The notes below the pieces were generated by a model. That model saw only the letters and a list, made by a program, of their open reading frames with translations, was not told the origin of the DNA and made no database searches. A stretch of DNA of 64,000 bases from Prorocentrum cordatum (Eukaryota > Sar > Dinophyceae > Prorocentrales > Prorocentraceae): the NCBI GenBank assembly GCA_963575745.1, contig CAUYUJ010002099.1:1-64000 (forward strand). Reading direction: 5' to 3'. A program made the position numbers and the translations under genes. Each line of letters starts with the position of its first letter. Position 1 is the stretch's first letter. Shown in pieces: positions 8,501-32,077 of this stretch.

Positions 8501-9523
8501 ATGGGCGATGCAGGCGGATACACATGGGATGGCGCGGGAGGATGGTGGGATAGCCGCAGCAGCGGCTGGCGTGGCTGGGAGGGCGGCCATGATTGGTCAG
8601 CGAGGGGTTGGAGAGACTGGCGACAAGACGGGCACACGCCAACGGAGGACGCCAAATGGCGCGATGGCCCTGCCGCCGCAGCAGCGGCGGCGGTCTCGCC
8701 TCAACGGCCGTCTCGCTTCGCCGCGCTTAGCGTTGTGAGCCCCCGCGCCCCTGGTCTCGGCATGCCCGAATTCGATAATTTCGTGAGGGCTGCCCTCCGA
8801 AACGTACCAGAACCTGGGAACACAGTTTCAGGAGAGGGGTCGGGATCCCGAGCCGCGCCTGCGGCGCAGGAGCCCCGCGCCACCGCAGCGGCGGCGGCGC
8901 GCGGGCCCCAGGATTTTGAGAAGTTTGATGTTAATTATTTTTTGAGTTATGAAGAGAGGCTCGGCACTTCGTTTAAGCAACACAATCAAGCGTTGAAATG
9001 GTGGCGCCATCTGAATGAAGACCCAACTGCCCCGTTCGAGTCAGAAGCCAAGTGGTTTGACAATGCGGAGCCCACCATGGTCGCTGTTTGCGACCACGGT
9101 GCGAGGACGAGCTTTGGTTTCAAAAGCGACGAGGAAGTCCCTTGGCGGTGGCAAGAGATGGTGGCGACGCTCAGGGAGGAAGATATCAGGGAGGTCGTGG
9201 AGGGGCCCCGCAGCAGCGGGGCTCTGATCGGCTGTTCCCTCGAAGTCCGGCCAAACAGCTACGACCACATGCGTCAGAGTATTGTGCGCGCGCGACAGTT
9301 CGCGGGGCAGCGGGTGAAAGTGAAGCTGCCGATGTGGGATTTCGTGTTGCACCGCGACGACGGGACAGGCGTCCGTTTACACCCGCACTGGGGCGACAGG
9401 AAGGTCGAAGCTCTGCCCCTCGTCCCCCCGCGCGGACACGGTGAGGCCACCAACCGCGGGTTTGGGCGGGAGCGACGGGTCAGGAACTTTTCGCTGGTAC
9501 AAGGACCTCGGTGTGGAGCGTAA
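8501..9523 (+). CDS. Unknown protein with Trp/Gly-rich N-terminus, first cargo gene
   Basis: I chose the ATG at 8501 because the protein-like composition begins there and the upstream codons are low-complexity. The first 45 residues are a Trp/Gly/Asp-rich segment (GGWWDSRSSGWRGWEGG). A conserved-looking globular part follows at codons 140-330 (FEKFDVNYFLSYEERLG, LKWWRHLNEDPTAPFES, VKVKLPMWDFVLHRDD). No family is recognised. Near 9455-9465 a +1 frame change would extend the protein to 9647 through GTFRWYKDLGVERKVKFD, which reads more naturally than the in-frame tail. Three element hairpins lie inside the 8501-9523 frame or its extension, read as AAAA or RSSG. Confidence 0.55.
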   Translation: MGDAGGYTWDGAGGWWDSRSSGWRGWEGGHDWSARGWRDWRQDGHTPTEDAKWRDGPAAAAAAAVSPQRPSRFAALSVVSPRAPGLGMPEFDNFVRAALRNVPEPGNTVSGEGSGSRAAPAAQEPRATAAAAARGPQDFEKFDVNYFLSYEERLGTSFKQHNQALKWWRHLNEDPTAPFESEAKWFDNAEPTMVAVCDHGARTSFGFKSDEEVPWRWQEMVATLREEDIREVVEGPRSSGALIGCSLEVRPNSYDHMRQSIVRARQFAGQRVKVKLPMWDFVLHRDDGTGVRLHPHWGDRKVEALPLVPPRGHGEATNRGFGRERRVRNFSLVQGPRCGA

Positions 9524-9647
9524 GGTCAAGTTCGACGCCGCCAGAGAGAAGGGGGGGCCGACGCCCTCTCAGGGGCCCCGCAGCAGCGGGGCCGCGGCGC
9601 CCAGCACCAGGCCCTCGGCGTCCGCAGCAGCGGGTGGCAAACAGTAG

Positions 9648-10640
9648 TTTTGGGACCGAATAACTCCCCAGACGATTTGGTTGCGGAGTAGATGGCTCCG
9701 CAGCAGCAGCGGGGCTCGAATGAAGGGCGCGTTGCATTTCTGCAGGGGCGCGCGCGTCGGCCGCCGAGATCGGGAGCGCTCGTGCAGGCGCCGTGGCGCG
9801 ATCTTCGTTAAGAAGTCTTCCCTCTCCTCCCTGTCCCCCCATCCCGCCGCCCTCAACGTCGGCTCCTCGCCGCCCGTTCCTCGTCGCTCCACGCCTGTTC
9901 GTTCTCCTCCAATTTCCTCTCCCGCTTCCTCGTTCTCTCCTTCCCATTTTTCCCTCCATCCCATTGCGTCCCTGGCACCCCAGCGAAGTTCGCAGTTCAA
10001 AGTTTGAAGTTCGGAGTTCGAAGGTCGCAGTTTGAATTTCGAAGCTTCGCACTTCGAGGTTCGATCTTCGAACCTTCGTCATCTCGTCGTCGTAATCGTC
10101 GTCCTCGTTCGTCGTCGTCGTTCCTCGTCGGCGTCGATTGTCGTTGTCGTCGTCGCTCGTTGTCGTCGTCGCCGTCGTCGTCGTGGTCGGCGTCGTCGTC
10201 GTCGGTCGTTGTCGTCGCTAGTCGTCGTCGCTGGTCGCCGTCGTGGTCATCGTCCTCGTCGTCGTCGTCGTGGTCGTCGTCGCCCTCGTTGTCGCCGTCG
10301 TGGTCATCGTCGTCGTCGTTGTCGTGAAACGCCCCACGTAGGAGGAGCAGAGAAGGGAGTAAGGAGAAATGAGCACGGTGGAGGGAGGAGGGAGGATTGA
10401 ACAGGAAGAGGAGGGTGCAGATGGAGGTAGAAGGGATGAGGTAGCTCAGAAGTGGGAGCAGCAGAGTGGCGCAATGGGAAAAGCCATGTGAGTGCAGGGA
10501 GGGATGGAAATGCGATAAAGTGAAGCCGCAGCCGTTGCAGGTCTGCCTCCCGCCGCGCCCGCCCGCCTCCGCGACTGGAGCCGCGCAGGAGCCTCTGCCG
10601 AAGTCTCCGCAGCAGCGGGGACTGCCAGAGGAGGCTCCTT
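9648..10640 (+). repeat. Copy A of a 1-kb direct repeat
   Basis: It is homologous to 11490-12532 with scattered differences. It contains one element hairpin, a pyrimidine tract, a region of interleaved TTCGAAG-like motifs (9985-10075), a (GTC)n tract (10085-10325), a conserved GAAACGCCCCACGTAGGAGG block (10325) and a Pro/Ala-coding end with a second hairpin (10602-10623). It follows the first cargo gene and leads into the second, so it may be a shared intergenic or leader unit. Confidence 0.85.
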
Positions 10641-10658
10641 CGCGGTTTGTGCGCCGCT

Positions 10659-10958
10659 ATGGCGAGCATCGCGGGCAAGTACGACGCCGATGACTTCGAG
10701 CTCATCACGACGGAGGGCAGTGTTTGGCACTGGGCGACCATGGTGGTGCGGTTTCTCCAGCGGCGCAATCGTTGCCGCCATGCACGCGCCGTTGGAGTGA
10801 AGGGCCAGATGCTCGTCGACCAGGCGCGGCAGATGATGGAGGAGGCGCGCCGCACCGAGGAGATGGGCAAGATGATGCTTGAGATGTCGAAGAAGAAGGT
10901 GAAGGACATCCCAGGCAATATTCGGTACTTTTGCCGCCAGCCGCACCAGGAGAGCTGA
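10659..10958 (+). CDS. Small coiled-coil-like protein of unknown function
   Basis: The 99-codon frame starts at ATG 10659 (MASIAGKYDADDFEL), just after copy A of the 1-kb repeat. The middle is helical and heptad-like (QARQMMEEARRTEEMGKMM), ending in a basic stretch (KKKVKD). No catalytic motif or transmembrane segment is visible. The position matches that of the 12296 gene relative to copy B, so the two genes may share a leader. Expression is not shown by the sequence. Confidence 0.4.
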   Translation: MASIAGKYDADDFELITTEGSVWHWATMVVRFLQRRNRCRHARAVGVKGQMLVDQARQMMEEARRTEEMGKMMLEMSKKKVKDIPGNIRYFCRQPHQES

Positions 10959-11129
10959 GCGGCGATCGGAGCTGGGCCGATAGAGGAGGATGAGGAGGAA
11001 GAGGAGGGGGGATGAGGAGAGGAGGAGGAGGGGGATGAGGAGTTGGAGGCAGCACGCGCACCCGCACTAAGAGCCGCCAGCCGCGCCCGTCTCCGAGCAT
11101 GAAACCCGAGCTTGGCTGGAAGGGGGGAG

Positions 11130-11358
11130 GGCGGTAGCAGAAACAGCGCAGGACAGGGATGGGAGAGGTCACGCATCCGCCGCATTAGCGGCGGTGGTAC
11201 GACAGTTCTCATGGCGGCGCGGCGGTCGCTGAGAAATGGAGCACGTGCGTGGGCCTGCGTGCGCTTAATTATGAGTGGCTCTCGTCCCCTCCCCTCCTCT
11301 TCCTCCATGAGATCTCTCTCCTGGTGCATATCCCCTGCCAGTGCTCGTCCTGCTCCTC
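11130..11358 (+). repeat. Dispersed intergenic repeat, copy 1 (second copy 19506-19735)
   Basis: About 225 bp with high similarity to 19506-19735, including GACAGGGATGGGAGAGGTCA and CCATGAGATCTCTCTCCTGG. Each copy lies after a cargo gene, so it may be a shared 3' or intergenic unit of the element. No gene is seen in 10959-11490. Confidence 0.8.
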
Positions 11359-11386
11359 TATCCGCCCCCCCTCGTCCGTTCCTGCC

Positions 11387-11479
11387 ACCAGCCACATGGG
11401 GCGTTCTCAATCAACACCCCATTGAGTGTCCCCATGTGAAGGTTGCCCTTGTCATGAGGGCGGACTCGCAAGAGCCGAG
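11387..11479 (+). repeat. 93-bp repeat shared with the interior of the 16873 gene
   Basis: It aligns without gaps to 17841-17933, where it is coding (ATWGVLNQLPIDC and following). Here it lies in non-coding sequence, so one of the two is a copied gene fragment. Confidence 0.85.
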
Positions 11480-11489
11480 TGGCTGAAGA

Positions 11490-12532
11490 ACTAGTAGTTT
11501 GGGGTCCGAACAGCTCCCCGGACGATTTGGCTGTGGAGTGGGTGGCTCCGCAGCAGCGGGGCTCGAATTAAGGGCGCGTTGCATTTCTGCAGGGGCGCGC
11601 GCGTCGGCCGCCGAGATCGGGAGCGCGCGCGCAGGCGCCGTGGCGCGATTTTCGTTTTGAAGTCTCCCCTCTCCTCCCTGTCCCCCCATCCCGCCGCCCT
11701 CAACGTCGGCTCCTCGCCGCCCGTTCCTCGTCGCTCCACGCCTGTTCGTTCTCCTCCAACTTCCTCTCCCGCTTCCTCGCTTTTCCTTCCCATTTTCCCT
11801 CCATCCCAGTCCATCCCTGGCACCCCAGCGACGTTCGCAGTTAGAAGCTGGAAGTTCGGAGTTCGAAGATCGAAGTTTGAATTTCGAAGCTTCGCACTTC
11901 GAGGTTCGATCTTCGATCCTTCGTCATCTCGTCGTCGTAATCGTCGTCCTCGTTCGTCGTCGTCGTTCCTCGTCGGCGTCGATTGTCGTCGTCGTCGTCG
12001 CTCGTTGTCGTCCTCGCCGTCGTCGTCGTGGTCGGCGTCGTCGTCGTCGATCGTCGTCGTCGCTGGTCGTCGTCGCTGGTAGCCGTCGTGGTCATCGTCC
12101 TCGTCGTCGTCGTCGTGGTCGTCGTTGCCCTCGTTGTCGCCGTCGTGGTCATCGTTCTCGTCGGCGTCGTCGTCGTCGTTGTCGTGAAACGCCCCACGTA
12201 GGAGGAGCAGAGAACGGAGCAAGGAGAAATGAGCGCGGTGGAGGGAGGAGGGAGGACTGAACAGGAAGAGGAGGGAGCAGGCAGAGGTAGAAGGGATGAG
12301 GCAGTTCAGAAGTGGGAGCAGCAGAGTGGCGCAAGGGGAAAAGTCATTTGAGCGCAGGGAGGGATGGCATTGCGATGAAGTGAATCCGCAGCCGCTGCAG
12401 GTCTGCCCCCCGCCGCGCCCGCCCGCCTCCGCGACGGGAGCGGCCCAGGGCATGGAGCAGCCTGGCGCGACTGGAGCCGCGCAGGAACCTCTGCCGAAGT
12501 CTCCGCAGCAGCGGGGGCTGCCAGAGGAGGCC
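11490..12532 (+). repeat. Copy B of the 1-kb direct repeat
   Basis: Same content and order as 9648-10640: hairpin at 11545-11562, TTCGAAG-like region at 11835-11925, (GTC)n tract at 11935-12185, and hairpin at about 12500. The homology ends at GAGGCCCC near 12532, where copy A instead reads GAGGCTCC and runs into the 10659 gene. Confidence 0.85.
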
Positions 12533-14191
12533 CCTGATGCAGTTCCGCATGGAATGGCAGATCCAGCACCGGCCTCCGCAGCAGCGGGGGGGGAGGTTGC
12601 AACGAAACTTCGGTCATTGTTTTCGTCGATGTCTGGTGCCCAGGAAAGCGTTTCGCAGAGCCTGCTGGTTGCTCAGGAATTGATGCAGAATGGCCCGATC
12701 GAAGATGCGCGGAAGTTAACGGCCGCCGCCAACCGCCTTGTAGTCATAACGGCTAAGGAGGCGGCTTGCGCAGCAGCGGGGGCATCCGTGGAGCCAGGCG
12801 CCGCCGCAGTGGTAATCGAGCCTGGACAGGGTGGCTCCGATGACCCGAGACCGAGATCTCCCTGCACGACTAATTGGCGACAGCGGCAGGCTCTGATCGC
12901 AGCGCGCAAACTGCGTGAAAGCTCCTCCGCAGCAGCGGGGGCCCGCGTGATCAAGACTCTCGCCTTGACCTCGAAGGCTCGGTCGCCAGCGCTTCCTGTC
13001 CAAGAGGGCTTCCCAGAGGAAGGCCGCCCGCACTTCCCATCGGAAGAGCGCGGCCCGAGCCATTCCAAGCCTCTTGTGCCCCTGCTGTACGACGACGAAG
13101 ACCAGGTGCAGGAGGGGCAGACAGAGGCGCGCGTGAATCTGGCTTTTGCTTCCCTCGTCCTGCGCGCGGGCGCCTCCCTGTCGGATTGGGTCGCAGCTGT
13201 CAGGGACAGGCGCGAAGGGGTCGTCTTAGTCTCCTTCGAGCCTGGTGCACGCATCAATCGCGATCGGCGGAAGCAACATCTCGACGATCTCATCCGCCAA
13301 AGTGGCTTCCACGGGGAGGTCGCGCGCGAGTGCGTCGGGGCTCTCCTCTGGGTTCCCGAGCGCGTCGAGCAGTGCGAGGTGCTTCGCTGGCACTGCCACG
13401 GGAAGTTCCTGGTTCAGGCCTGGTCGGTGACCCTGGCAGCGGTGGCTCACAATCCGAAAGCAAAGGAAGGCAAACTCTCCATAGCAGTGGGGGGCGTGTT
13501 CTTCCGACACCAGACGAGCCTCGCGGGACACCCGTGGCCCGAAAACTTCCGCAACGGGCTGCGGAACCTGGCGTTGTGGAACCGAGTGCGTATTCTCGCT
13601 GGGATCTTTGACGCAGGCAGGGAGGATCTTTCGGAGCTGCTCAGAAGTTGCGGCGCGTCTGGTACAGGCGTACTCGGCTTGGCTTTGTGGTGCCCGACAA
13701 AAGGTTGTCACGTGACGCACCCGCACTACATCGTGATTCTTGGCCCCGCTCAGGTTCGCGAGTGCCCTGCGGGCGGGCAGCCTGATCTGCCGCACTGGTT
13801 GAATCAGGATTCCCAGCCTCCGCAGCAGCGGAGGCTCCTCACCAGCCTGCAGTACCGCCAGTTGGATTGGGTGGCGCGTCCGACCTGGGTCAGGCTCACG
13901 GACGCGGAGCGCAAGGAGCAGGATACATATGACTGGCCGCACTTGCACAGGGTGATCCACAAGGCCCAGGATGCGAACCGCCTCACGGAACATTGCCACA
14001 CATTGTTCGTTTTTTATAGAAGCCAAGAACAGGAAGTCTGGCAAAGGCGCCGCGGCCAGGAAGAAGGATCGGAAGCGGGAAGCCAAGTGGGAAAAACAGC
14101 GGGGAGAGTGGGCGGAGACAGAACCCGAAGCAACAGCCTCAGCAGCAGCGGAGGCGCACGGAGACCAGGAGGAGGCGGAGACAGAATCTGA
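12296..14191 (+). CDS. Unknown cargo protein, N-terminal frame (631 codons)
   Basis: The frame opens inside copy B of the 1-kb repeat at ATG 12296, so the true start may be further in. Residues 1-90 are Pro/Ala/Gln-rich with hairpin-encoded PQQRG. A helical part follows (SLLVAQELMQNG). A more globular region spans residues 280-530 (LRAGASLSDWVAAVRDR, CVGALLWVPERVEQC, NGLRNLALWNRVRILAG). At least six element hairpins are embedded in frame. I recognise no family. After about 14009 the in-frame tail becomes an implausible Arg/Gly/Ser mixture, while a +1 shift in the T-run at 14010-14015 leads into the Lys/Glu-rich frame that ends at 15053. The real product is probably the joined frame, about 919 codons. 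Confidence 0.5.
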   Translation: MRQFRSGSSRVAQGEKSFERREGWHCDEVNPQPLQVCPPPRPPASATGAAQGMEQPGATGAAQEPLPKSPQQRGLPEEAPDAVPHGMADPAPASAAAGGEVATKLRSLFSSMSGAQESVSQSLLVAQELMQNGPIEDARKLTAAANRLVVITAKEAACAAAGASVEPGAAAVVIEPGQGGSDDPRPRSPCTTNWRQRQALIAARKLRESSSAAAGARVIKTLALTSKARSPALPVQEGFPEEGRPHFPSEERGPSHSKPLVPLLYDDEDQVQEGQTEARVNLAFASLVLRAGASLSDWVAAVRDRREGVVLVSFEPGARINRDRRKQHLDDLIRQSGFHGEVARECVGALLWVPERVEQCEVLRWHCHGKFLVQAWSVTLAAVAHNPKAKEGKLSIAVGGVFFRHQTSLAGHPWPENFRNGLRNLALWNRVRILAGIFDAGREDLSELLRSCGASGTGVLGLALWCPTKGCHVTHPHYIVILGPAQVRECPAGGQPDLPHWLNQDSQPPQQRRLLTSLQYRQLDWVARPTWVRLTDAERKEQDTYDWPHLHRVIHKAQDANRLTEHCHTLFVFYRSQEQEVWQRRRGQEEGSEAGSQVGKTAGRVGGDRTRSNSLSSSGGARRPGGGGDRI

Positions 14192-15053
14192 AGCAGCAGC
14201 CTCCGCAGCAGCGGGGGCGCACGGAGCCCAGGAGGAGCTTGAGGGCGACGGGCGCGACGCCGTCGACCTCTGCAGCCCCACGCCGCCCCAGGACGAACAG
14301 AGCAACCCTGACAGAGGTGAGAGGGAGGAGAAGAAGGAGAAGGAGAAGATGAAGAAAAACAAGAAGAAGAAGAACAAGAAGAAAGATATCAGGAGCAGAA
14401 CCCCAAAGAGGACGAAGCCCTCGCAGCAGCGGGGGGGCAGCCGTTCCACGCGCAGAAAGCGGGAGCAGAGGAGCAAAGACCGAATGAGGAGAGTGCCCTC
14501 GCAGCAGCGGGGGCGCAGCCGCTCCAGACGCAGAGGGCAGGAGCAGAGGGGGCGCAGCCGCTCCAGACGCAGTGGGCAGGTGGAGGGCGGCGACCGCAGG
14601 GCGGCGTGGGCAGGGCGGTTCCTGCCCGCGCCGCCCGCGCACCCACCCCACACAGGTCAGGTGATGCTGAGGCCGAGGGCATGGCGCCCGCTCCTCCCAG
14701 GCCAGATATGCCGTCCGCCAGGCATGCCGCCAATGATGCCACCACCACCGCCATCTCCCCCGCGTGGAGGAGGACGCCGCGGGGCCCCCCCGCTGGAGGA
14801 GACACCGCACCCTACGCCACCGCGGCTCGTCCCGAGCCAGCCGCCGCACCCTCCGCCGAAGCGGCTCCTGCCAAGAGAGTCGCAGACGCCCCGCCCTCTG
14901 GCAGCGCCGCTCGTCCCGAGGCCGCCGCCGCAGCCTCCCCCGCCGCAGCTCCTCTCCAGGGAGTCGCCGCTTCCTGCGGACACGTTTGCGTTCAACAGTG
15001 ACGCGTTCGAGGCATTGTCGCGGCGCCGCAGCCCTTCAAGCGGCTCCAGCTGA
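13971..15053 (+). CDS. C-terminal frame of the 12296 gene: Lys/Glu, Arg/Ser and Pro-rich tail
   Basis: From 14016 this frame reads IEAKNRKSGKGAAARKKDRK, then an acidic block, a Lys-run (MKKNKKKKNKKKD), an Arg/Ser-rich block with two RGRSRSRR-type repeats, and a long Pro-rich tail ending at 15053. Such tails are usual for nucleic-acid-binding or nuclear proteins, but this is composition only. Hairpins at about 14196, 14427 and 14495 are translated as AAAG or PSQQRG. There is no separate start that I trust. The upstream frame with a +1 shift in the T6 run at 14010-14015 is the better source. Confidence 0.45.
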   Translation: MRTASRNIATHCSFFIEAKNRKSGKGAAARKKDRKREAKWEKQRGEWAETEPEATASAAAEAHGDQEEAETESEAAASAAAGAHGAQEELEGDGRDAVDLCSPTPPQDEQSNPDRGEREEKKEKEKMKKNKKKKNKKKDIRSRTPKRTKPSQQRGGSRSTRRKREQRSKDRMRRVPSQQRGRSRSRRRGQEQRGRSRSRRSGQVEGGDRRAAWAGRFLPAPPAHPPHTGQVMLRPRAWRPLLPGQICRPPGMPPMMPPPPPSPPRGGGRRGAPPLEETPHPTPPRLVPSQPPHPPPKRLLPRESQTPRPLAAPLVPRPPPQPPPPQLLSRESPLPADTFAFNSDAFEALSRRRSPSSGSS

Positions 15054-15600
15054 CGGCGCGCGGCTGCGGAGACCTCCGCAGCAGCGGGGGTGGTCTCCGC
15101 AGCAGCGGGGGGTAGCATAAGAGATCTGAGGCGCGGGCTCGGCGCGCGCGCGCGCGCGAGGAGGCAGGCGCTCGCATTGAGCGGCTGAAGAAATCGTGGT
15201 CGTTGTCGTCGTGCTCGTCGTCGTCGTTTGCTTTTTGCTGGGGGGGAAAGGAGGACGAGCAAGAGGAGGAGGAGGAGGAGGGGTCTTGCAGGGACCAGGA
15301 CCGACACCGGGACCGGGACCGGGACCAGGGGGAGAGCGGGACCGGGACCGGGAGCGGGACAGGGACGGGGAGCCCTGGACGAGCAGCAGAACCGACCACG
15401 GGACCGGGGCCGGGACCGGGGCCGGGACCGGGACCGGGGCCGGGAACCGGGACCGGGAACGGTGGTGCTGGTCCCGGTCCCGGTCCCGTGGTCGGTCCTG
15501 CTGCCCGTCCTGGGCTCCCCGCCCCTGTCCCGCTCCATGTGTCAGCTCTTTGTCCCGCTCCCAATCTCTGCCGTGCCGTTTGGGTTCGAGATCGCCAGCC
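15054..15600. repeat. Simple-sequence region with GGGACC minisatellite
   Basis: Two element hairpins occur at 15073 and 15095. A CGCGCG run and a CGTCGT block follow. From about 15295 to 15500 there is a GGGACC/GGGCCG hexamer array, partly followed by its inverse (GGTCCC). The array can fold back on itself. No gene is supported. Confidence 0.75.
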
Positions 15601-16071
15601 ATGGAGGTTAGGAAGCCCGACACAAGGATCGGGCGATGCCGCGTCGGCGAGAAGAGGAATAGGAAACCCGACACAAGGACGGGGCGATGCCGCGTCGGCG
15701 AGAAGAGGGGTTTTCGGAAACCGGACCACAGACCTCATTCGAGCAAGCGCGCTGGGGCGGCGGCTCGACCCACGGCAGCGTCGGCGGAGGCGGCCGCGCG
15801 GCCGCTAGCTCGGCGCAAGGCGAGCTCCAAGAAACAAACCCTCGCAGTAGCGGGGGCTGCTGTAGCCCTCGCAGCAGCGGGGGCTGCTGTCTTGGAGCGT
15901 GGTGGGTTGTGGGATGAGAAGACTGCTCGGAGGACAGGCGTGGAAGATGACGATGGGTTCGATCAGGCACTTTGGTACCGCGACCATTGGGGCAACTGGT
16001 GCAAACTAGGGTCCAAGATGCCGCCAGTCGGCAGCTCCTGGCAAGAAGGCGCCGACCCCCTTCGCATGTAA
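15601..16071 (+). CDS. Small basic protein with two 17-residue tandem repeats
   Basis: ATG 15601 starts a 156-codon frame. A 51-bp tandem repeat at 15610-15711 encodes RKPDTRIGRCRVGEKR twice, then a degenerate third start (RKPDHRP). An Ala-rich part with two hairpins (15839, 15867) follows, read as AVAGAAVALAAAGAAVL. The C-terminal end (DQALWYRDHWGNWCKLGSKM) is Trp-rich and looks folded. The function is unknown. The Ala-rich hydrophobic run could be mistaken for a membrane segment, but it is hairpin-derived. Confidence 0.4.
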   Translation: MEVRKPDTRIGRCRVGEKRNRKPDTRTGRCRVGEKRGFRKPDHRPHSSKRAGAAARPTAASAEAAARPLARRKASSKKQTLAVAGAAVALAAAGAAVLERGGLWDEKTARRTGVEDDDGFDQALWYRDHWGNWCKLGSKMPPVGSSWQEGADPLRM

Positions 16072-16872
<801 letters not shown>

Positions 16873-21693: not shown

Positions 21694-21727
<34 letters not shown>

Positions 21728-21787
21728 AGGAGGAGCAACAGCAGCAGCAACATCACACTAGCAGCACCGACAGGAGGATCATTGCGA
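21419..21787. other. Short intergenic region with a strong hairpin and a (GGA)n tract
   Basis: One of the longest element hairpins (GCGCGCCGC-AGCA-GCGGCGCGC) is at 21443-21466, followed by a repeat of GCGCCAGCGGCGCGCTGACCGCT at a short distance. A GGA-rich run lies at 21690-21740. No gene is supported. Confidence 0.6.
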
Positions 21788-21869
21788 GGATGCGGCCGTT
21801 TGCTTGCCCTGCGGCGCTGGGCTCGAGACAAGAGGGCGGCCGCGTGTGCGCGCGCATGGCTTCGGCATC

Positions 21870-22165
21870 ATGGCCGCCGCAGCCGCTCCGCCCCCAGACC
21901 CAGGCGACGCTCGCCCTGCAAACGCGCCTCTGCGGGTCGGGCACGACCGCGAGGTCAACGAATGTGGAGTTTTTATAGCAACACGACAAAACTAAAGACC
22001 CCGACAGAGTGCTCATGAATCCACGGAAACTACAGAGACCAATATTCGGATTCGGGCAATTACGTTATGCGCCGCAGCAGCGGCGCGGCTTGCCATTATG
22101 AATATGGCAAACGCACATGGAAGAATATTCATTTATGCTCGCAGTGGCCGTGGAAAAGCGACCAC
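21870..22165 (+). pseudogene. Decayed copy of the gene B start (copy 1)
   Basis: It begins at ATG 21870 with the same first residues as gene B (MAAAAAPPPDPGDARPANAP). Indels soon break it: the frame stops at 21995, and the later homology (ATATTCGGATTCGGG, then the GCGCCGC hairpin near 22071) is in other frames. The homology ends near 22165, and the next copy of the gene A leader starts at 22190. Confidence 0.8.
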
Positions 22166-22324
22166 AAGAAGTGGTTAGGTTTTGGAGTCCGATGAGAAGT
22201 AGGAGGATTTGTTCGAGACGAGGAGTCCGCTTTCCATAGCCGTTTTCAGGCGGATCACCAGTGAGGGGAGTTGACACCTAGAACGCGGGCGCCTTCGCAG
22301 CAGCGAGGGCTTGCGCGCGGCGGC

Positions 22325-22860
22325 ATGAAACGCAAGGCATCGGAAACATGGCGGGATGTCGTTATCGGGAAAGCAGCGCGCCAAGATGACGCGAGCATGG
22401 GGGTGCTCTGCGCGACGGGCGGACTGTGCCGAAGTCACGAGGGAGCATCGGGATTTGCTCTGGAATTTGAGGAGCGCTATGTTCCCTTTGGCGGCGAGGA
22501 AAGCCTAGAAGCCTTCGTGCCCGTCGGAAAGCACCGCCTGTGCATGCTCAAGGTGGTCCGTGGTCTCAGCGCCGTGAAGGGCGCCTTGAACGAAACGACA
22601 ATGTTAGAGCAAGTGCTTGGGAAGCTTCGCGTCGGAGAAGGAGACAACGTGGATGAAGCGTCGACCCCTGTGAAAAACGCTTCCGCAGCAGCGGGGGTTG
22701 CAGCAGGATCCCCCGCAGCAGCGGGAGAAAAAGGTCGGGATCCCATGGCGGATCTCCTCGGAACCGTGAAGGGCGCATCGAAAGCGAAGCAGGTGGCGGC
22801 GCGTCGCCAACCAGAGAAAACCCCTGAGAAACAGAAAATATTGTCTCGAGGCACGCTCTG
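22325..22860 (+). pseudogene. Decayed copy of gene A (copy 2), truncated
   Basis: ATG 22325 begins MKRKASETWRDVVIGKAARQ, clearly paralogous to gene A, and the alignment continues for about 175 codons. Near 22855, after ILSRGTLC, the sequence diverges into unrelated DNA, so the C-terminal half is missing. The first linker hairpin has lost arm pairing (CTTCCGC against GCGGGGG), and the second is imperfect as well. The frame happens to stay open into the next gene, but I do not think it is a fusion protein. Confidence 0.75.
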
Positions 22861-23665
22861 CCTCTCGCTCCGTGCGGTCGTCTTGGGCGGCGTCGGGCCT
22901 CCGCTGACTGATTGCATGATGCATATATGTATATATTGTGTATGTATGGTGTGTCGACGTATATGTATGTACATACGTATATGTGTGTATTTATATATGT
23001 ATGTATATATAACACGGTCGCAGGGGCGTGGCCCGCGGCCCAGGGCGGGGCCCGAGACTCTGGGACAGGACATAGGGCCTCATCATCGTAGGATGCTCAT
23101 CATTCTCATCATCGCCATGATGGGGGGGGAGGAGGGGACAGCTACCAGCTGCGCGCTGGCGCCACCGCCGCTCCCCCGCGCCCGCTGGCGCATCCGCAGT
23201 GCGGCTGCGGGAGGGGCTGCGCCTCAATTCCTGCAGAGGCGGCCTGCAGGGATGTTGCACTTTTGGCGTCTAGTACAAACGCCCGAGCGGCCCGCTTTTT
23301 TTTTGGGGGGGGCTCTTGCTTCACGGTGGAAGAGGAGACTATCATCATCCCCCGTGCCGCGTTCGCCTTCCCTCGACGACGATGTCGACGACTTCCTACA
23401 TTCTGGCCTTGTTTTCTGGGGAGTGTTCTCGGAGTCGTTCGGGGCGTTCGTTCGTGTGCGCATGCTTCTGAGTTTTCTGCGCGTCGTTCGGGCCGCTCGT
23501 CCTGGTGTGAGTCGTTCGGGCCCCTCCTCACCAGCCCATCTCACAGCAGCAACCCTCGCGAAGCATGCCGACGGTCGTGTTTTTTCAGGCGTGTGTCCGC
23601 TGGTCCCCGCATATCTCCCTTGTTCCTCGTTCCTCCCGCCCCCTTGTACATCCTCCTTGTGGGGG
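22861..23665. other. Insertion-like stretch with a TA/TG-rich microsatellite
   Basis: From 22918 to 23012 there is an AT-rich alternation of TATATG, TGTATG and TACATACG units, which stands out against the GC-rich surroundings. The remainder is mixed GC-rich sequence with no supported gene. This block replaces the C-terminal half of gene A in copy 2. Confidence 0.6.
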
Positions 23666-23746
23666 GATGCGGCCGTTTGCTTGCCCTGCAGCGCTGGGCT
23701 CGAGACCAGAGGGCGGCCGCGTGTGCGCGCGCATGGCTTCGGCATC

Positions 23747-26700
23747 ATGGCAGCCGCAGCCGCTCCGCCTCCAGACCCAGGAGACGCTCGCCCTGCAAAC
23801 GCGCCTCTGCGAGTCGGGCACGACCGCGAGGCCAACGAATTTGTGGAGTTTTGGTACCAAGAAGACAAAAAGAAAGACCCCGACTTCGTGCTCATGAACC
23901 CACGGAAACTAAATGGGGCAATATTCGGATTCGGGTACGTTATGCGCCGCAGCAGCGGCGCGGCTTGCCATTATGACTCTGGCAGACGCATATGTAAGAA
24001 TATTGATTTCTGCTCGCAGTGGCCGTGTCCCAGCGACCATCGTCTGGCGGACGGTTCCGTGGACTACAATAAGTGGTCAGACTTGCAAGCGCCCTGGCAT
24101 ATAGTGCAATGCGCGGGCGGGTGGCCCGCAGGAGCGGGAGCCCCCGCAGCAGCGGAGGCGCCGGCCGAGGCGTGCGAGGCCCCTGGTGAAGCGGCAGCGG
24201 CGCCGTCGGTGGGCCCTGCTGAAGGCCCCGCAGCAGCGGGGCCGTCAGCGGAGGCGTGCGTGGCCCCTGCTGAAGTGGCAGCGGAGCCGTATGTGGGCTC
24301 TTCTGACGGCCCCGCAGCAGCGGGTGCGTCAGCGGAAGCGTGCGTGCCTCCTCCTGAAGTGGCGGCGGCGCCGTGCGCGTGCCCTTCTGCAGAGCCCGCC
24401 ACAGCGGAGGCGTCCGTAGGTCCTGCTGGCGCGCATGGCGCCGACGCAATCGCCGAGGCCGCTTCCGCAGTGGAGTCTGCCTTGAAGGACTCCGCGGCAA
24501 CAGCAGCTCTCTCAGCAAAGGAGGTTGCCCCTGTCGCTTTCCCCCAACCCGCCCCGCTTGCTGTTCGCGACGTAGCGGAACCCGTGCTTCCAGGGGCGGA
24601 AGTTGCTGCAGTTACCGCCTGTGAACAGACAGCCGCGACAGCAGGCGCTGCGGTTGCCCCTGCAGGCGCCCCCGCAGCAGCGGGGGCGCCTGCAGGGGCA
24701 CTTTCAGAACAAGGCCAGAGGTGCTTCGAGAAATTGATGAAGTTGTCGCGCAGTATTCGCGGAAGGCCGGGGGGAGGCCGAGAGTGGATAGGATATTCTG
24801 CTTTCGTAATCTTTGCGCTGTTGCGGAAGGTGCGCGTCTACGTGTGGGAAGGACGCAACAGAGTCGACCTTTGCAAAGCTGTCTTGCCGCCGTGGAAACT
24901 AGAGCAGTTAACCCGCGAGCCTGCGGTGGACGCGATCGCGTGTTGCGCCGTCCCCCGAGACTCGGGGCCACCGGACTGGGCCCCCGTGTCGGAGGAGTAT
25001 CCTTTGTTTCGATGCAATCATTTTATCGCAGGCGTCTCCACCGACTTTGTGGATTTCACGGGAGATGCTTCGACGGTGGACGGTTTCTATTCGGCTCTCG
25101 GTGTGTTCGTCGTGTCCACAGTCGCAGACGGGGACTGCGGTTTGGATTGCATGTTGCAGATGACCCAGGAGGTTTCCACGCGAGAGTCTCGCAGGGAGCT
25201 CCGCCAGGACAGTTGCTCTCTCCGACCACCCTGATCCTTCGCTTCCATCTCTGCTGCCCCCACATGCTCTTCCCCTCCTTGTCTCCCCATTCTGCCTTCA
25301 TGCCTCTCCCATCCCGCCCTTCTCTCCCCTCGCGCCCTCCCCGCCGAGTCTCCTTGCCCCTCCTCCATGCCCGCCCGCCAGGACATCGCGGACTACATCG
25401 TGCAAAGGGTGCGTCTGGCGCGGTTCCTCGACGCGATGGTCCTGACACAAGAAGTCAGGAAGGATGACGTCCAGGAGCTTCGTCGCCTGCAGAGCGCCTT
25501 AGACGACGAAGAACTTGTCCCGCAGCCTGGCCACGCCGCCCCTCCGAGAGCACAGGGCGTTGCCGCCGCAGCAGCGGCGGCGCCACCTGAGGACTTGGCC
25601 GTGGTGGAAGTCGACGCCGAGGCTGTCTGTCAGGAGCTCGTGCAAGCCATCCAATGGTGGACAGGACTGACAGACGCTGCGTGCGCCCTGGACGTAGCTC
25701 GGGAGTTGATGCCCGCAGAGCGGGAGGAGCAGCTCTTGAGGTACAGGAACCGCGGCTGCGAGCGCAAAGCCCCCGCCCAGAACAAGAAGCGCGTGGTGGT
25801 CCCGTCGCTCCTGTGCTCGAGGATGGAGATAGCGGGTGCTTTCGACGAGCACATGCGCTCTTTAGGCTGGACGCCTGGAGACCGCTTTCCGTATGGAGGG
25901 GCGCGTTCATTCATGGATGCGTGGGACTGGGGTTCCATGTCCCGTCTCCCTCTCAGGAAGCGCACGCACGTTGTGCGGCGCTGGCACAAGGCTTTTCTGT
26001 CGTCGAAATACGCCTCCGCAGTAGCGGAGGCTGTTCGGCAGCCGCGGGGACACGAGAAGCAGCACGGGCAGGGGCGCCTCCTGAAGTGGAAAGGGCGGAA
26101 AAGGATACCACAACAGGGACAGGGCCCAGCTCGAAAATGCCCTTGGTTGCGGCAAGCTCTGTTTGAATGGTGGAGTTCCATTCGGCACAGTGTGGATTGG
26201 AAGATGATCAAAAGTGGACTGCGAAGTACCCAAAGAGAGCCAGCGAAGATAGCAAGGTTCACGCAAAGCATGCTCCAGACCAAAGCGTTGGAGCTCATGA
26301 GCGAGTACGTCACGCAGCAGCTGCGGATCGGGCAGCGACCCGCCGCCGTGGAGTTGAGGTCGCGCTGGTGGGCCTCCTGGCGCAAGGAATACGGCCTCAG
26401 CATGCGGTACCCGAACAGGAAGTACAAGTGCCCGCTGCCCGTCTTGGAAGAGCGCCTCGAGCGAGGCTGGCTGAACGTGTTTAGGGTGCGCGCCGCGTGC
26501 GTGCTACTCAACGAGCAGGATCCCGAGATGGAGAACTTCGACCAGTCGCCTTTCCACCACAATGAAACAGGATCAGCTGGCGTGAGGACCCTCGCAGTAG
26601 CGGGGGTCGAAGTGCCACTGGTGGAGTGCCACGGCGCGGTGCGGGAGCGGTGGACGGCCAATTTCATGACAATGAGCGACAAGGATCGACTGCGGAGAGA

Positions 26701-28420
26701 AGGCCCCCCACCGATGGAGTGCATGTTCAAGGCGGAGGGGGGAGGAGAGAAGTTGAGGCCGCGCCTGCTCGAACACCTTCGGCGCCGAGGGTTCGGCAGA
26801 TGGGTGTCGGCGACCACCAGCACCAAGGGGTCTTACCGGACACCGTGCGTGCTCGCGTACCTGGACCGCCACCTCCCTCATCTGCCAGAGCCTCCGCAGC
26901 AGCGGGAGTGGAGAATTATGATGGCGGATGATCATGGCCCTCACTTGTCCCCGCTTGTGAGTAAGCTATGTTGGTCTCGAGGGTACGTGTTCATCCCGCA
27001 CGGGGGCGGCGTAACCCCAATCCTCCAAACTGTGGACACACATCTGAATCAACACGCCAAGCGCGAGTACATGAAGAGAGAAGGAGCCGCGCTGCTGAGA
27101 GCCATGAGGCTGGGCCAGTGCGTCCCACAGCTGGACAAGTTAGAATGCATTGACTTGATGGTGGAAGTGATGTCCCAAATGAGTCTTCACTTGGCTGCGG
27201 CAGACGGGTACTGGGAAACTGGTTTCAAGGCAAATCTGTGGGATGTGGACTTGGACGCGCGCATATGCAAGGAGGTAGGCCATTTCTGGAGAAAGTTGGG
27301 GATGCGTAAGAAGGTCGCCGCCGCAGTAGCGGAGGTCGAAGAAGAGGTACAGGCGGGGCGCTTGAGATGGACTTACAAAGACATCATGCGATTGGTCCTC
27401 CCGCACCCTCGACGCGGCCACTGCGACGACGTGTTCGCAAACCTTGGAGACGACACGGCTCTGGACGAGGGCGACAAGATTTGGCATGGCATGGAGGGGG
27501 CGGAAGACGCAGCCGAGGGTCTCCGCAGCAGCGGGGGCACTGAGGGTGGCAATTCCGTCGACGCCCTCGAAGGAGATGAAGATGATGGGAGTGAGGGCGA
27601 CGACGGGTGGAGCGCCGCTGGCGAGTTTGACTACGAATGGGCCAATCAAAGTCTCACCGCAGCAGCGGCGGGGGAGAGCGCGCTGGAGGCACCGCCTGGC
27701 CTGTCGATGTCTCGTATGGAAACTGCGGAGCAGACGTCTGAATTGATGAGAACGTATTCGTCGATCGCTGAGGAGTTGCGCAGCTGGGGCGACATCGCGG
27801 GGGCCACGTTCATGGAGACGCAATTACGGAAAGAACGGAGGCGAGTGCGTGAAGTGTCGAAGGAAGATCCTGGGGTTCAGCGAGCCCTCGCAGCATACGA
27901 GGACGCCCGCGAGGCGACGCTCAGAAACGAGAAACGACAGCGGGATGTCGAGGCGCGGCGCAGAGAAGAGCTAACCCGCCTGGGGGACGACGTAAAGAAA
28001 GCGCGCAAGCTGCTGAGGACACAGCAAGCCAAACTCTTAGACGCAGAGGCAGCCATAGATATCAAACACAGGATGAAGCATGTCGGGTTATCCGAGCTGG
28101 GCGCGGGCCTTCGCAGCTGCGGAGGCGTGGCGGGTCGAACGTCGAGGTGCGACGCGCTGAATCGCCTTGCGATTTTGGGTTCTGGGCTTTCTGCAGCTCA
28201 GCGGTCAGATTTTGATTGGTTTCGGCGGGAATGGGACGCCGCTGGCATGGAGGACTTCGGTGGAAAGTGGCCGGAGACGTTTGCCACATGGTTGCAGAAC
28301 GTCATAGACGAGTACTTGGGGGGCAACCCGAGAGCTTTCAGCATGTTTGTGCACAGTGAGACGCGACGCCGTCTGTCTGGCTCCCTGGCGCTTGCGCTCC
28401 CTGCAGCTGGGGGCCTCTGA
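23747..28420 (+). CDS. Gene B: OTU-like segment fused to a DD35D (Tc1/mariner/pogo-like) transposase
   Basis: Two exons (23747-25207 and 25382-28420) give about 1499 aa. Residues 1-130 form an unknown conserved block (VGHDREANEFVEFWYQEDKK), followed by an Ala/Pro linker with several hairpins. Near residue 460 VSTVADGDCGLDCML resembles the catalytic start of OTU cysteine proteases, but I see no convincing partner His. The second exon holds a helical DNA-binding-like part and then a DDE core. Asp874 lies in NFDQSP. Asp1003 lies in MADDHGPHL, with the usual Asp-x4-His pattern. Asp1039 lies in LQTVDTHLNQ, preceded by IPHGGGVTP. The spacing is DD35D, as in Tc1/mariner/pogo transposases that target TA. 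The C-terminal 350 residues are acidic then coiled-coil. It is the likely transposase of the 24-kb element. Family assignment is by motif only. Confidence 0.7.
25208..25381 (+). other. 174-bp intron with direct-repeat borders in gene B
   Basis: CCGCCAGGAC at 25201-25210 is repeated at 25375-25384. Joining the repeats restores a continuous frame (RRELRQ-DIADYIVQRVRL) across a C/T-rich stretch that contains an in-frame TGA. With the cut after CCGCCAG the intron begins GA and ends AG, a non-canonical type known in dinoflagellates. Exact borders can slide within the repeat. Confidence 0.75.
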
Positions 28421-29057
<637 letters not shown>

Positions 29058-31128
29058 ATGGCCGCGGCCGCCAGCAGCAGCAGCAGCCCATTGGGCCCCG
29101 CAGCAGCGGGGCCTCGGGGCCGACTGACGGCAGTGTTCACAGCGAAATCTGGGAAGGTTTGGCGACCTGTAGGTGGTCAGGCAGAACCCTGGAAGGGCCC
29201 TTGGGCCCTTGTGCCAGAGGGCGCCCCCGCAGCAGCGGGGGCTGCGCCGCCTGGCGTCTCAAGCTCAGCAGCGGCGGCGCGATCAGAAGTTTCTACGATA
29301 CGCACCCGCCCAGGCGACTCCGTGGTGGATCCGAGCGATGACGAAGAGCCTCAGGAATTTAGGGGCTGCAGGCCGCCCAACGACGTCGAGCGGCGCGAAC
29401 GCGTTCTTCGCGACACCGTCCCGCCAAAATTCTTCTGCGAAAGAAGGGCGGCTGACGTGAACAGGCCACGGAACGACAACGTGGGCAACCTTTCCGTCCT
29501 GTTCGGGAACTGGGGCCCCATGCCGAGCGAGACCAACCACGCGGACCAGCGGCGGAGACTTGAGTTGCAGCTGCGGCATTGCCCTGCTCTCGTGGCGTGC
29601 TTTGCGGAATGTGAGGAGCAGATGGAGTCAATCCTACAGCGGCCAGGGAGACCACCGCCGCTGCAGGCGGACGCCCCCGCAGCAGCGGGGGCGTCAGCAG
29701 CGGAGGGCCAAAGCAGCAGCAGCGGTGGGCCTTTTGTCGCCCCCGCAGCAGCGATGGCGACAGCAAGAGGAAGTCGTGCTGCGAGTGTTGGCGATTGCCA
29801 ACAGCTCCAGAATCGACCAGAGTACGAATACTTGACCCTGCGCGGGCGTGAGGACAAGTCCTTGTGCATCGCTGCGCGCGCAAATCTGTGTTACGAAATG
29901 CGGCTGCTCCACTGGGAAAGGAGTGTCGACGGCCACTACAGAACAGCAAGAGGGCGCAAGATGGAAGCGTTCTCGAGGATCATGGTGGTTGAGATCTACT
30001 TCGATCAAACCTACGCCCACTTCGGCTCGAAAGTGCGGGTGTGCGCGGTGCACCTCCACCGCGACACGGCGAAACAATTCCAGAGGCTTCAACGAGGCTC
30101 ACAAGACGTGGTGGCCGAGGTTGGCGACCATCTTGCAGGACAACAGCGTTGACATCCTTTGTGGGGATTTCAACATGGCGCTCACACAGACGCTGCCGAG
30201 TCTTCGGGGTCTAGGCATGCGATTGGAGACGGCAGCAGCGTACTTCTGGCGCGGATTGGACGGCACTCCGTGCTTGGACAGCTGCGGCATCTTCGTTCTC
30301 AACAGGCCTGGCGAGTACACCCTGTGCTGGCCGCTGAGCGCCGTGCACGACAGAGACGAGACGGGGTTGCTCTTCGCACGCAAGTCGGTGATCGGTGAGA
30401 TCGGGTACCGTAACAGAAGCAAGGCAGAGGCCCCCGCAGCAGCGGGGGCCCCCACCAGCCCATCATCGCAGCCGACGTACTGGCACCACAACCAGAACGG
30501 AGGCCCTGGGATGCCTTACTCTTGCTACTACCCGAAAAAAGACGCCCGCGAGCACCTCCAGGATTCACTGACTCAGTCAGAGGAATGCCAACGCAAGATC
30601 CAAGAGAAGGAGCGTGAGAAACTGAGGCGCGCCGAGGCTGAGGCTAGAGGGGACCACCGCTTCTCTAGTAATCGCGAGGTGACCCTCTTCCGCGCGTTGC
30701 AGAATACGTTCCCGCCAGAGACCGTGGAGGTGGAGGGGCGCTGGCACGGCGGCGCCCACTACCCTCTCCTGTTCCAAATGCGCATGGCCAGCGTGCGTTC
30801 GCAGGGGAGGAAGCAGGAGAGAGCCAAAGAGAAGAAGGACAGGCGCGCCCAGAAACAGCTGGCAGCTGCGCTCAGGGCGCCGCTGCCGCCCGAGCAGCAC
30901 GGATCCGAGCGCCAGGCACCAGAGCAGCACAGCGAGAGGGGCGAGCAAGACGAGCGCGCCCAACAGGCGTGGCGCCCACCAAGATGGGCAGACGAAAGCG
31001 CGGACGACGGCCGCGACATGCCCGCGGCTGGCGATGGAAGGTCGCGGCGGGGGGTTGAAAGGGGGAGGGGGGGAGAGGGGCGGTGGAGCACGGGGAGGGC
31101 AGGAGGGAGGAGAGGGAATGAGGAATAG
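29058..31128 (+). CDS. Endonuclease/exonuclease/phosphatase-like (EEP) cargo protein, needs a +1 frame change
   Basis: ATG 29058 begins MAAAASSSSSPLGPAAAG, with the first hairpin in frame. Residues 130-360 show an EEP-like layout: NVGNLSVLFGNWGPMPSE at the N-terminal motif, KVRVCAVHLHRD as an inner strand, and DILCGDFNMAL with the catalytic Asp/Asn pair near 30150-30182. The first frame stops at 30152. Near 30085 a +1 change (skipping one base in CAGAGGCTTC) links it to the frame ending at 31128, which contains the GDFN motif and a Lys/Glu-rich tail (EKEREKLRRAEAEARG). EEP proteins cut nucleic acid or phospho-substrates. Here a nuclease role for the element is possible but unproven. A sequencing error, decay or programmed shift cannot be told apart. 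Confidence 0.55.
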
Positions 31129-31158
31129 GCTGAGCAGGACGAGGGATGACATAAGGAA

Positions 31159-31668
31159 ATGAGTGTCGGGAAGGGGCGGGAGTTGACAGGGAGGGGATAT
31201 AGAAATAATTATTTATCACCCCCAAGGTGGCAGCCGACCCCGCAGTGCCCATCTCCAGGGCCTGCGCCGCTGGAGCAGCGAGGGCAGCGCGGCGCCGCCA
31301 TCTACATCTCGGACGCGATCGCTGCCCTCGGCCACGAGCCGCCAGAGCCCCCGCAGCAGCGGAGGCCACAAACGCCACGGCAGCAACCAACAGACGGGGA
31401 GTGGCGCAGGGATGAGTGGTGGCGCACCAAGGAGGGCGAGGAGCGCGAGTGGCAACAGCCGAGCGGCGAGGCTTCCTCGCTGCAGGACCGCATGGTCGAC
31501 TCCGCCTGGCGCGACATGCAAGTTGCATTCGGCAGCGACCAACGCCCCAGTGACTGGTGGAGCAGCCACAGTGGGTGGAGTAGCGGCCAGGGGCACTGGG
31601 AGGTCGCGACCACGACTTGGAGGTGGGTCGAACCCCCCCCCCGAAACCAATCCCTGGGAAAAACTTAG
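31159..31668 (+). CDS. Small Trp-rich protein of unknown function, last cargo gene
   Basis: The 169-codon frame from ATG 31159 is Gln/Arg/Trp-rich (EWRRDEWWRTKEGEEREW, DWWSSHSGWSSGQGHWE). The Trp/Gly/Ser style recalls the N-terminus of the 8501 protein. One hairpin (31346) is translated as EPPQQRR. The start overlaps nothing and lies 30 bases after the preceding frame. There is no recognisable domain and coding status is moderately uncertain. Confidence 0.4.
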   Translation: MSVGKGRELTGRGYRNNYLSPPRWQPTPQCPSPGPAPLEQRGQRGAAIYISDAIAALGHEPPEPPQQRRPQTPRQQPTDGEWRRDEWWRTKEGEEREWQQPSGEASSLQDRMVDSAWRDMQVAFGSDQRPSDWWSSHSGWSSGQGHWEVATTTWRWVEPPPRNQSLGKT

Positions 31669-31984
31669 CTGAACCATCGCACAGGAGCCGCCCCTCCGCA
31701 GCAGCGGAGGGAGGCCTCATCGGCCGAACGTCGACCCTCCGCAGCAGCGGAGGCCTTGCCCATGCATCGTGAGCGGCGGCGACTCGCGCGCGCCGTCGTG
31801 ATCGGCGACCGCTGCCCGAGCGGAGAAGCAAAAAGAAACGGTGCTTTCATCGGTGCTGTCGTTGCCTCCTCTCCTTCATCGTTTTCTTTTCCCTCCCCCT
31901 CCAATCCCCCATCCCGCTATCACATTTTATCGTCTCCAATCGTATCGGGAGCTCCCGTGGCAGAAGAGCACCCAGAACGAGGTC
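31669..31984. other. Right-end non-coding region with the last two hairpins
   Basis: Hairpins at 31692-31713 (CCCTCCGC/GCGGAGGG) and 31736-31757 are the last ones in the window. The remainder is C/T-rich with no gene. Confidence 0.6.
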
Positions 31985-32067: not shown

Positions 32068-32077
32068 CCAAAAAACA

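Follow-up and report, generated by a model that had tools for sequence, protein, structure and literature searches.

A single-strand array of stem-loops in a giant DNA transposon of Prorocentrum cordatum, and its counterpart with a different loop in a related element

Why would a DNA transposon carry, scattered through its genes, dozens of copies of one small stem-loop that keeps its loop, varies its arms and always faces the same way? The question is raised by positions 1–64,000 of contig CAUYUJ010002099.1 of Prorocentrum cordatum (the window, that is, the whole 64-kb stretch analysed), in which a perfect terminal inverted repeat (TIR; 32 of 32 positions matching) bounds an element of about 24 kb at 7931–32109. 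Inside these bounds lie 53 exact copies of CGCAGCAGCG (CGC-AGCA-GCG) and four of CGCAGTAGCG (CGC-AGTA-GCG), all 57 on the plus strand and none on the minus strand, where first-order Markov resampling of the element (100 trials) yields 0.29 on average and 2 at most. The original prediction of about 57 copies with a nearly constant loop is thereby confirmed. What it took for the first copy, 0.7 kb inside the left end, is in fact the second, as the earliest core lies at 8555, 0.6 kb inside (the last is at 31740), and its statement that no copy occurs elsewhere in the window holds for the plus strand of the remaining 39.8 kb (0 cores) but not for the minus strand (2 cores). Cores are spaced 414 bp apart on average, compatible with random, exponential spacing (Kolmogorov–Smirnov p 0.38) and with a uniform distribution along the element (p 0.95). 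As had been claimed, all three coding frames are used (positions modulo 3, 16/23/18), and cores also lie between and outside the chosen open reading frames (ORFs). A second copy of the element, about 98% identical (C114:693992-718089), carries 56 cores on one strand and 0 on the other.

The inner 10 nt of the stem-loop hardly vary. The outer arms share the consensus GCCYC...GRGGC, and departures from it compensate each other. When Watson-Crick pairs in the 57 copies are compared with arms re-dealt among copies, position 1, itself nearly invariant, shows 48 pairs against 46.6 expected (p 0.26), position 2 shows 31 against 21.1 (p 0.0015), position 3 shows 51 against 46.7 (p 0.0027), and positions 4 and 5 show 48 against 34.9 and 40 against 26.2, with 0 of 4000 shuffles as high; pairing at position 6 is at chance level. 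The summed stem extension of 53 copies is 146, compared with a mean of 87 and a maximum of 125 in 5000 shuffles, so paired arms are in clear excess over shuffled controls. With G.U pairs counted, all five outer positions are paired in 33 of 57 copies, four in 20 and three in 4, and uninterrupted extension reaches one pair at most in 11 of 57; pairing is strongly favoured but not obligatory. The proposal that structure and not sequence is conserved therefore needs correction, since the near-constant inner 10 nt and the arm consensus are conserved as well, and the claim of variable yet complementary arms stands as an excess over shuffles but not as a property of every copy. Among background cores, the first eight matches listed, all on one contig (C1), extend by 0–2 pairs, compared with an average of 4.34 for the element's 53. 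Five pairs of internal tandem duplicates have their stem-loops in common, and by eye five of their six arm differences retain pairing, via G.U.

How private is this array? In the 4.13-Gb, 21,875-contig assembly that contains the window, the 11-mer core alone is no more frequent (26,467) than its reversed control (31,870), while one perfect 16-nt form occurs 2639 times against 32 for its control, and these figures rule out a host-wide repeat. Among the matches listed for the 16-nt form, 96 of 100 fall in element-like clusters (eight contigs, one strand per contig) and four stand alone. Copies of CGCAGCAGCGG number about 2109 per Mb within the element, compared with 6.4 per Mb across the genome, which is far from the equal density outside such elements that would have counted against a private family.

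A second family is available at the DNA level. L052 (NHDG01000044.1) is a 7.7-kb contig filed under a Planctomycetia metagenome-assembled genome, where it is very likely contamination by a eukaryotic transposon; its transposase is 35% identical to that of the window. Its transposase strand holds 23 GCAATNAC motifs and the opposite strand 0; the motifs form the stem-loop GYCCG-CAATNA-CGGRC with compensating arms (GTCCG..CGGAC, GGCCG..CGGCC, CTCG..CGAG). In its 22 fully flanked copies position 2 covaries (p 0.0008), and positions 1 and 3 are nearly invariant (p 0.05 and 1.0). The architecture is like that of the window element, with a different stem length and loop. At the conserved protein motif TLAVAG, which CAATNA cannot encode, the sequence in L052 is CGCTCGC-AGTT-GCGGGCG, which may be left over from an AGTN state, although such pairing is not rare for this peptide (p 0.14). 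In a search for further families, an AGTN-palindrome scan of IMG/VR returned at least 120 stretches, none among those listed coming near L052 (21 vs 2 in 7.7 kb), the next being L152 (8 vs 0 in 12.5 kb) and the rest smaller, and queries of the P. cordatum genome with the relatives P0011 and P0039 found only the window family among 45 and 46 scored matches. Enrichment, a single strand, covariation, confinement and the relative's own version, with another loop, uphold the earlier view that the stem-loops are a structural signal of the element's own.

Only two loops are established at the DNA level, and each belongs to another organism, P. cordatum and the source of L052. This would also suit stem-loops that recruit or evade a host RNA pathway (processing, silencing or editing), with loops drifting along with the host rather than with the element, as would the trans-splicing of multi-gene transcripts in dinoflagellates described in PMC11453091. 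We consider this second rival quite improbable: the perfect form is largely restricted to the element in the P. cordatum genome, and the neighbouring LINE (long interspersed nuclear element) ORF and the rest of the window are without plus-strand cores, so the host genes seen here make no use of the stem-loops.

Most other relatives are known as protein alone, and their loop types are deduced from peptides. Depending on frame, the GCAGTNGC core translates as AVA, RSxG or PQxR. Across 61 homologs, [PSTLA]AVA[GE] occurs 171 times against 3.4 expected, RS[SCGR]G 128 against 5.0 and PQ[QLSW]R 32 against 2.1, so that AGTN-reading peptides exceed composition 15- to 50-fold, compared with 0- to 2.3-fold for look-alike and reversed forms (AIA 3 vs 1.5, ALA 4 vs 3.9, VAV 4 vs 2.2, KSxG 5 vs 2.9; reversed AVA 8 vs 3.4, RSxG 0 vs 5.0, PQxR 0 vs 2.1). 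In 95 transposases RS[SRCG]G reaches 206 against 7.6 and the AVA form 509 against 16.9. The peptides A[IM]T and RN[NHDY]G occur 9 and 3 times in L052 and its 97% relative, and are at chance level (2 vs 3.9; 1 vs 1.8) across 88 others. The frames also agree within several proteins: P0091, with six RSGG and PQWR, would have the loop AGTG, and P0024, with four RSCG, AGTT, while P0082, with ALA/APA forms, two RTSG, one PHSR and no AVA, matches the three readings of ACYN. In the window's own transposase all three A-V-A tripeptides are encoded GCA-GTA-GCG, although outside stem-loops six element ORFs use GTA for 7% of valine and GCA for 18% of alanine codons; of these tripeptides, two sit in motifs whose conservation reaches far beyond the window family.

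Many sites do lie within linker-like segments, and one may ask whether the repeats are simply Ala/Gly/Ser-rich linkers (PAAAG, RSSG) of protein whose GC-rich codons form palindromes by accident. Such an origin is scarcely tenable: it is contradicted by three unrelated peptides in three frames, and sites outside the chosen ORFs, covarying arms and reversed or look-alike peptides near chance all speak against it. A simple codon repeat or alanine linker was likewise ruled out by frame usage and the peptide controls.

Relatives of L052 suggest what happens to the sites over time. A quick-search tree nests L052 and P0080 among P0082, P0081, P0083, P0043 and P0084 (SH-aLRT, a likelihood-ratio branch support, 99–100), and sites in common with L052 number 5/7 for P0082, 4/9 for P0081, 4/9 for P0043, 3/9 for P0084 and 2/6 for P0083, compared with random means of 0.15–0.50. 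Matched sites read ARNDG/ARTSG/ARSCG/ARSGG/SRSCG, RARNNG/RARTSG/RARSCG/RARSGG, GPQSR/GPHSR/GPQSR/GPQWR and QPAITG/QPAPAG/QPAVAG. Because the relatives' own readings at L052 sites beat random placement, stem-loop sites seem to persist across this clade while the loop changes, although not all sites are shared. Similarly, the site LAPAAAE of an 829-residue protein encoded by the window element corresponds to SAVAD in P0078, a protein for which two RSRG point to the loop AGTC.

Do the stem-loops move? We aligned the 3' 6 kb of 30 near-identical copies (that of the window plus the 29 next-best by score; at least 45 exist). All 17 stem-loop sites are occupied throughout, and the exact core is kept in 504 of 510 cells; of the six deviations, five are single base changes, and in the sixth the copy reads a paralogous segment. 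No new plus-strand core has been gained, and the minus strands of all 30 copies together hold one core. Since cores are kept and none is gained, there is no hopping at present, and the idea of a foldback element that multiplies within the transposon and copies its flank in inverted form finds no support in these data, nor in relatives that appear to keep sites and swap loops. Some sites in linker regions were probably gained by insertion longer ago, as the L052 stem-loop at 3292 sits within an insertion. Among rare variants of the same copies, L012–L041, changes towards G or C prevail (84 A>G and 93 T>C) over C>T (44) and G>A (22), so that these young transposon copies show a bias from AT to GC.

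The main rival is short-tract conversion or a mobile hairpin, in which selfish micro-repeats arise by insertion or template switching, cores are overwritten in place and loops homogenise without any reader. It would account for the single loop type of each element and the change of loop from family to family, for sites in insertions or tandem duplications and for peptide-rich linkers that differ among relatives, and conversion of old cores could also swap loops in place. We nevertheless hold it to be rather unlikely. None of the 30 copies has gained a core at the 3' end; the outer arms stay different yet paired, where long tracts would erase such differences; the ancient motifs TLAVAG and AVAEV hold cores made through codon choice; and 57 of 57 copies keep a single orientation.

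The reading that we favour, at roughly even chances, is that the stem-loops are single-strand tags under selection, probably in RNA, and that a factor acting in trans reads them and diverges along with the transposon. A single strand, covariation, a private distribution and a joint change of loops at lasting sites are as expected of a structure read by a diverging specific factor. The tags would most likely sit in the sense RNA of the transposon, and a factor, probably encoded by the element, would bind the stem-loop along the whole transcript, with the loop as the specific part. As that factor diverged with its lineage, the loops of the lineage would change together, replaced in place, and families would end up with a loop of their own: AGCA/AGTA here, CAATNA in L052, presumably AGTN in most relatives and ACYN in P0082. 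A likely use would be self-recognition of the element's RNA for export, protection, translation or packaging. Eukaryotic DNA transposons are not generally known to tell what they themselves encode apart from the products of dead copies. A bolder version, which we offer tentatively, is that this superfamily of giant transposons marks its transcripts with a lineage barcode, in which the second loop base and the closing pair (AG.., AA..A, AC..) form a code that is switched at all sites together with the reader and dictates amino acids of the transposase, serving self/non-self RNA recognition and possibly particle-like packaging.

Several points weigh against this reading. Loops other than AGCA/AGTA and CAATNA are putative types read from protein; loop bases are mixed within P0019, P0027 and P0060; PQSR is compatible with two loop types; and conserved motifs (TLAVAG, and RSxG before K-ARF/GRF) inflate both peptide counts and shared sites. 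Once the peptides are fixed, the choice of codons contributes little further pairing (single-site p 0.009–0.40). Selection is invisible at the depth of recent copies, since polymorphism in the outer arms is ordinary (0.067 of sites vs 0.064 in the rest; core CGC/GCG 0.044, loop 0.067, 20-bp flanks 0.103) and nonsynonymous changes are not depleted (29 synonymous, 67 nonsynonymous). The reader protein stands at candidate level, and the RNA level is unproven by wobble or energies: wobble pairs at positions 1–5 number 39 on the plus and 11 on the minus strand, but this was dropped as proof of RNA because the mutation spectrum of the copies is itself skewed (C>T 44 vs G>A 22) and the RNA energies predicted for the plus and minus strands do not differ (-14.96 vs -14.17, p 0.17). 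Energies that fail to separate the strands, and strand-specific loops, would equally suit tags in single-stranded DNA, the plus strand folding during transposition or replication. For cut-and-paste elements with TA targets (the IS630-Tc1-mariner group) we know of no single-stranded DNA stage, which makes this alternative very improbable; RNA is favoured over it only by orientation and by the known biology of such transposons.

The carrier of the array is a TA-flanked DNA transposon. With up to two mismatches, its terminal 30-mer matches 209 + 210 = 419 genomic ends (control 0), about 200 element copies' worth. The element inserts at TA, given that TA is present at 99 of 100 ends among the matches listed and the outer bases vary (37 of 41 mismatch-bearing ends listed differ in the two bases outside TA; the window copy is surrounded by GG-TA / TA-CC); no empty target site was seen for it. 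Some paired ends hint at palindromic targets around TA (GGTACC in the window, GCTAGC in C225, TGTACA in C1232), found in four of the nine end pairs that could be picked among the ends listed. Both ends carry subterminal tandem repeats of about 31–32 nt with CCTCTGTGACAGAGGG palindromes (7963–8075 and 31984–32068), and an inverted array of 41-nt period at 19915–20107 carries the same palindrome; these arrays are possibly transposase sites or a nested end. Long (CT)n tracts lie at 16578–16689 and 28697–28927.

The transposase-like ORF is stop-free and full-length in all 45 scored genomic copies (98–100% identity), and has 62 homologs in the protein database. Invariance of D392, D522 and D557 across 24 aligned sequences and an HTH_Tnp_Tc5 match in two of these 24 point tentatively to the Tc1-mariner/pogo group; no Pfam DDE match or credible PDB relative was found. 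The conserved 829-residue protein is, speculatively, a candidate for the stem-loop reader. A DGDCGLDCM-like motif in the ORF 5' of the transposase gene (22325–25234) and in L052 1009–5832 is reminiscent of OTU-type cysteine proteases, the window ORF being without a Pfam match. None of the 15 chosen element ORFs reached the curated Pfam cut-off, which LINE, chlorophyll-binding and helicase-like matches outside the element passed and a DnaJ match just missed; Rfam gave no match at gathering score anywhere in the window. No relative was found in IMG/VR with the TIR, with the transposase (as a single sequence and as two alignments) or with the 829-residue protein, nor in a plasmid search. Around the element, the left flank (7841–7930) resembles a light-harvesting helix (ANGRLAMMAIIG), and the window copy may sit in or beside a light-harvesting gene. 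On the right adjoins an ORF of 1611 residues (32249–37084) with RNase H ahead of reverse transcriptase, an unusual order, and at 38577–38974 a 31-nt tandem repeat of 12.8 copies contains GGTACTCGGCGACGGCTTG. Coordinates are collected in Table 1.

Table 1. Features of the transposon and positions of its 57 stem-loops in the window (aa, amino acids)
Feature	Position	Strand	Remarks
Giant DNA transposon, both TA target copies included	7933..32107	+	TIR, TA evidence, second copy C114
Transposon body	7935-32105	+	
Left TIR	7931..7962	+	outermost 2 bases are flank matching by chance
Right TIR	32078..32109	-	
Second conserved ORF, 829 aa, function unassigned	16873..19362	+	9 homologs at 34-80%, 7 aligned
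ORF 5' of transposase	22325..25234	+	L052 fuses region resembling its end to transposase
Transposase-like ORF, 1017 aa, stem-loop strand	25367..28420	+	62 homologs; conserved D392, D522, D557
Stem-loop 1 AGCA	8550..8569	+	
Stem-loop 2 AGCA	8672..8691	+	
Stem-loop 3 AGCA	9204..9223	+	
Stem-loop 4 AGCA	9574..9593	+	
Stem-loop 5 AGCA	9618..9637	+	
Stem-loop 6 AGCA	10603..10622	+	
Stem-loop 7 AGCA	11544..11563	+	
Stem-loop 8 AGCA	12499..12518	+	
Stem-loop 9 AGCA	12572..12591	+	
Stem-loop 10 AGCA	12764..12783	+	
Stem-loop 11 AGCA	12923..12942	+	
Stem-loop 12 AGCA	13816..13835	+	
Stem-loop 13 AGCA	14199..14218	+	
Stem-loop 14 AGCA	14417..14436	+	
Stem-loop 15 AGCA	14495..14514	+	
Stem-loop 16 AGCA	15072..15091	+	
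Stem-loop 17 AGCA	15093..15112	+	
Stem-loop 18 AGTA	15838..15857	+	
Stem-loop 19 AGCA	15865..15884	+	
Stem-loop 20 AGCA	16164..16183	+	
Stem-loop 21 AGCA	16793..16812	+	
Stem-loop 22 AGCA	16843..16862	+	
Stem-loop 23 AGCA	17599..17618	+	
Stem-loop 24 AGCA	18034..18053	+	829-aa ORF; APAAAE in 3/7 aligned homologs and PAAA in another 2; SAVAD in P0078; missing from P0075
Stem-loop 25 AGCA	18317..18336	+	peptide PRSSGG
Stem-loop 26 AGCA	18826..18845	+	
Stem-loop 27 AGCA	18889..18908	+	
Stem-loop 28 AGCA	19364..19383	+	
Stem-loop 29 AGCA	20428..20447	+	
Stem-loop 30 AGCA	20816..20835	+	
Stem-loop 31 AGCA	20846..20865	+	
Stem-loop 32 AGCA	21444..21463	+	
Stem-loop 33 AGCA	22068..22087	+	
Stem-loop 34 AGCA	22291..22310	+	
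Stem-loop 35 AGCA	22679..22698	+	
Stem-loop 36 AGCA	22709..22728	+	
Stem-loop 37 AGCA	23943..23962	+	
Stem-loop 38 AGCA	24140..24159	+	
Stem-loop 39 AGCA	24224..24243	+	
Stem-loop 40 AGCA	24308..24327	+	
Stem-loop 41 AGCA	24668..24687	+	perfect 21-bp stem, extends past these ends
Stem-loop 42 AGCA	25562..25581	+	
Stem-loop 43 AGTA	26012..26031	+	
Stem-loop 44 AGTA	26588..26607	+	within conserved protein motif TLAVAG
Stem-loop 45 AGCA	26890..26909	+	PPQQR; L052's own stem-loop ~2 residues off in alignment
Stem-loop 46 AGTA	27317..27336	+	within conserved motif AVAEV
Stem-loop 47 AGCA	27519..27538	+	
Stem-loop 48 AGCA	27653..27672	+	
Stem-loop 49 AGCA	28430..28449	+	
Stem-loop 50 AGCA	29094..29113	+	
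Stem-loop 51 AGCA	29223..29242	+	
Stem-loop 52 AGCA	29673..29692	+	
Stem-loop 53 AGCA	29739..29758	+	inner arm pairs degenerate
Stem-loop 54 AGCA	30430..30449	+	
Stem-loop 55 AGCA	31347..31366	+	
Stem-loop 56 AGCA	31692..31711	+	
Stem-loop 57 AGCA	31735..31754	+	

If true, this reading would add a new class to the signals of selfish elements, an array of stem-loops that change together and take precedence over protein sequence; the different loops of the families would provide a built-in natural experiment for finding the reader, and recurrent AVAG, RSCG or PQLR peptides in such proteins may be nucleic-acid signals rather than protein motifs. A search of the openly licensed PMC literature found no description of such a stem-loop system. 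With IS630-Tc1-mariner/pogo transposons the element has in common TIRs, a TA target, DDD-like conserved residues and a high copy number; unlike them, it is 24 kb long and carries several conserved ORFs of unassigned function and a stem-loop array. Rickettsia palindromic elements and other in-frame palindromic repeats are likewise short palindromes tolerated in ORFs, whereas the stem-loops here have one orientation, a single transposon, variable arms and a constant loop. Mobile palindromic repeats would be expected to show presence/absence polymorphism, yet none was seen at the 17 of 17 occupied sites in the 3' 6 kb of 30 copies, and to be dispersed genome-wide, yet 96 of 100 listed matches lie in element-like clusters. 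RNA-virus packaging signals are like the element's array in consisting of several sense stem-loops that share a loop motif and are scattered across coding sequence (sense being taken here from the transposase ORF); the array differs in belonging to a DNA transposon with no known capsid or particle, and in loops that appear lineage-specific across a superfamily. The dispersed packaging signals of positive-strand RNA viruses are the subject of a review (PMC8472981). Dinoflagellate introners, as portrayed in PMC10666404, share with the stem-loops the same kind of host, inverted repeats and mobile DNA, and the stem-loops differ from them in measuring 16–20 nt and in being, in many cases, translated in frame within ORFs.

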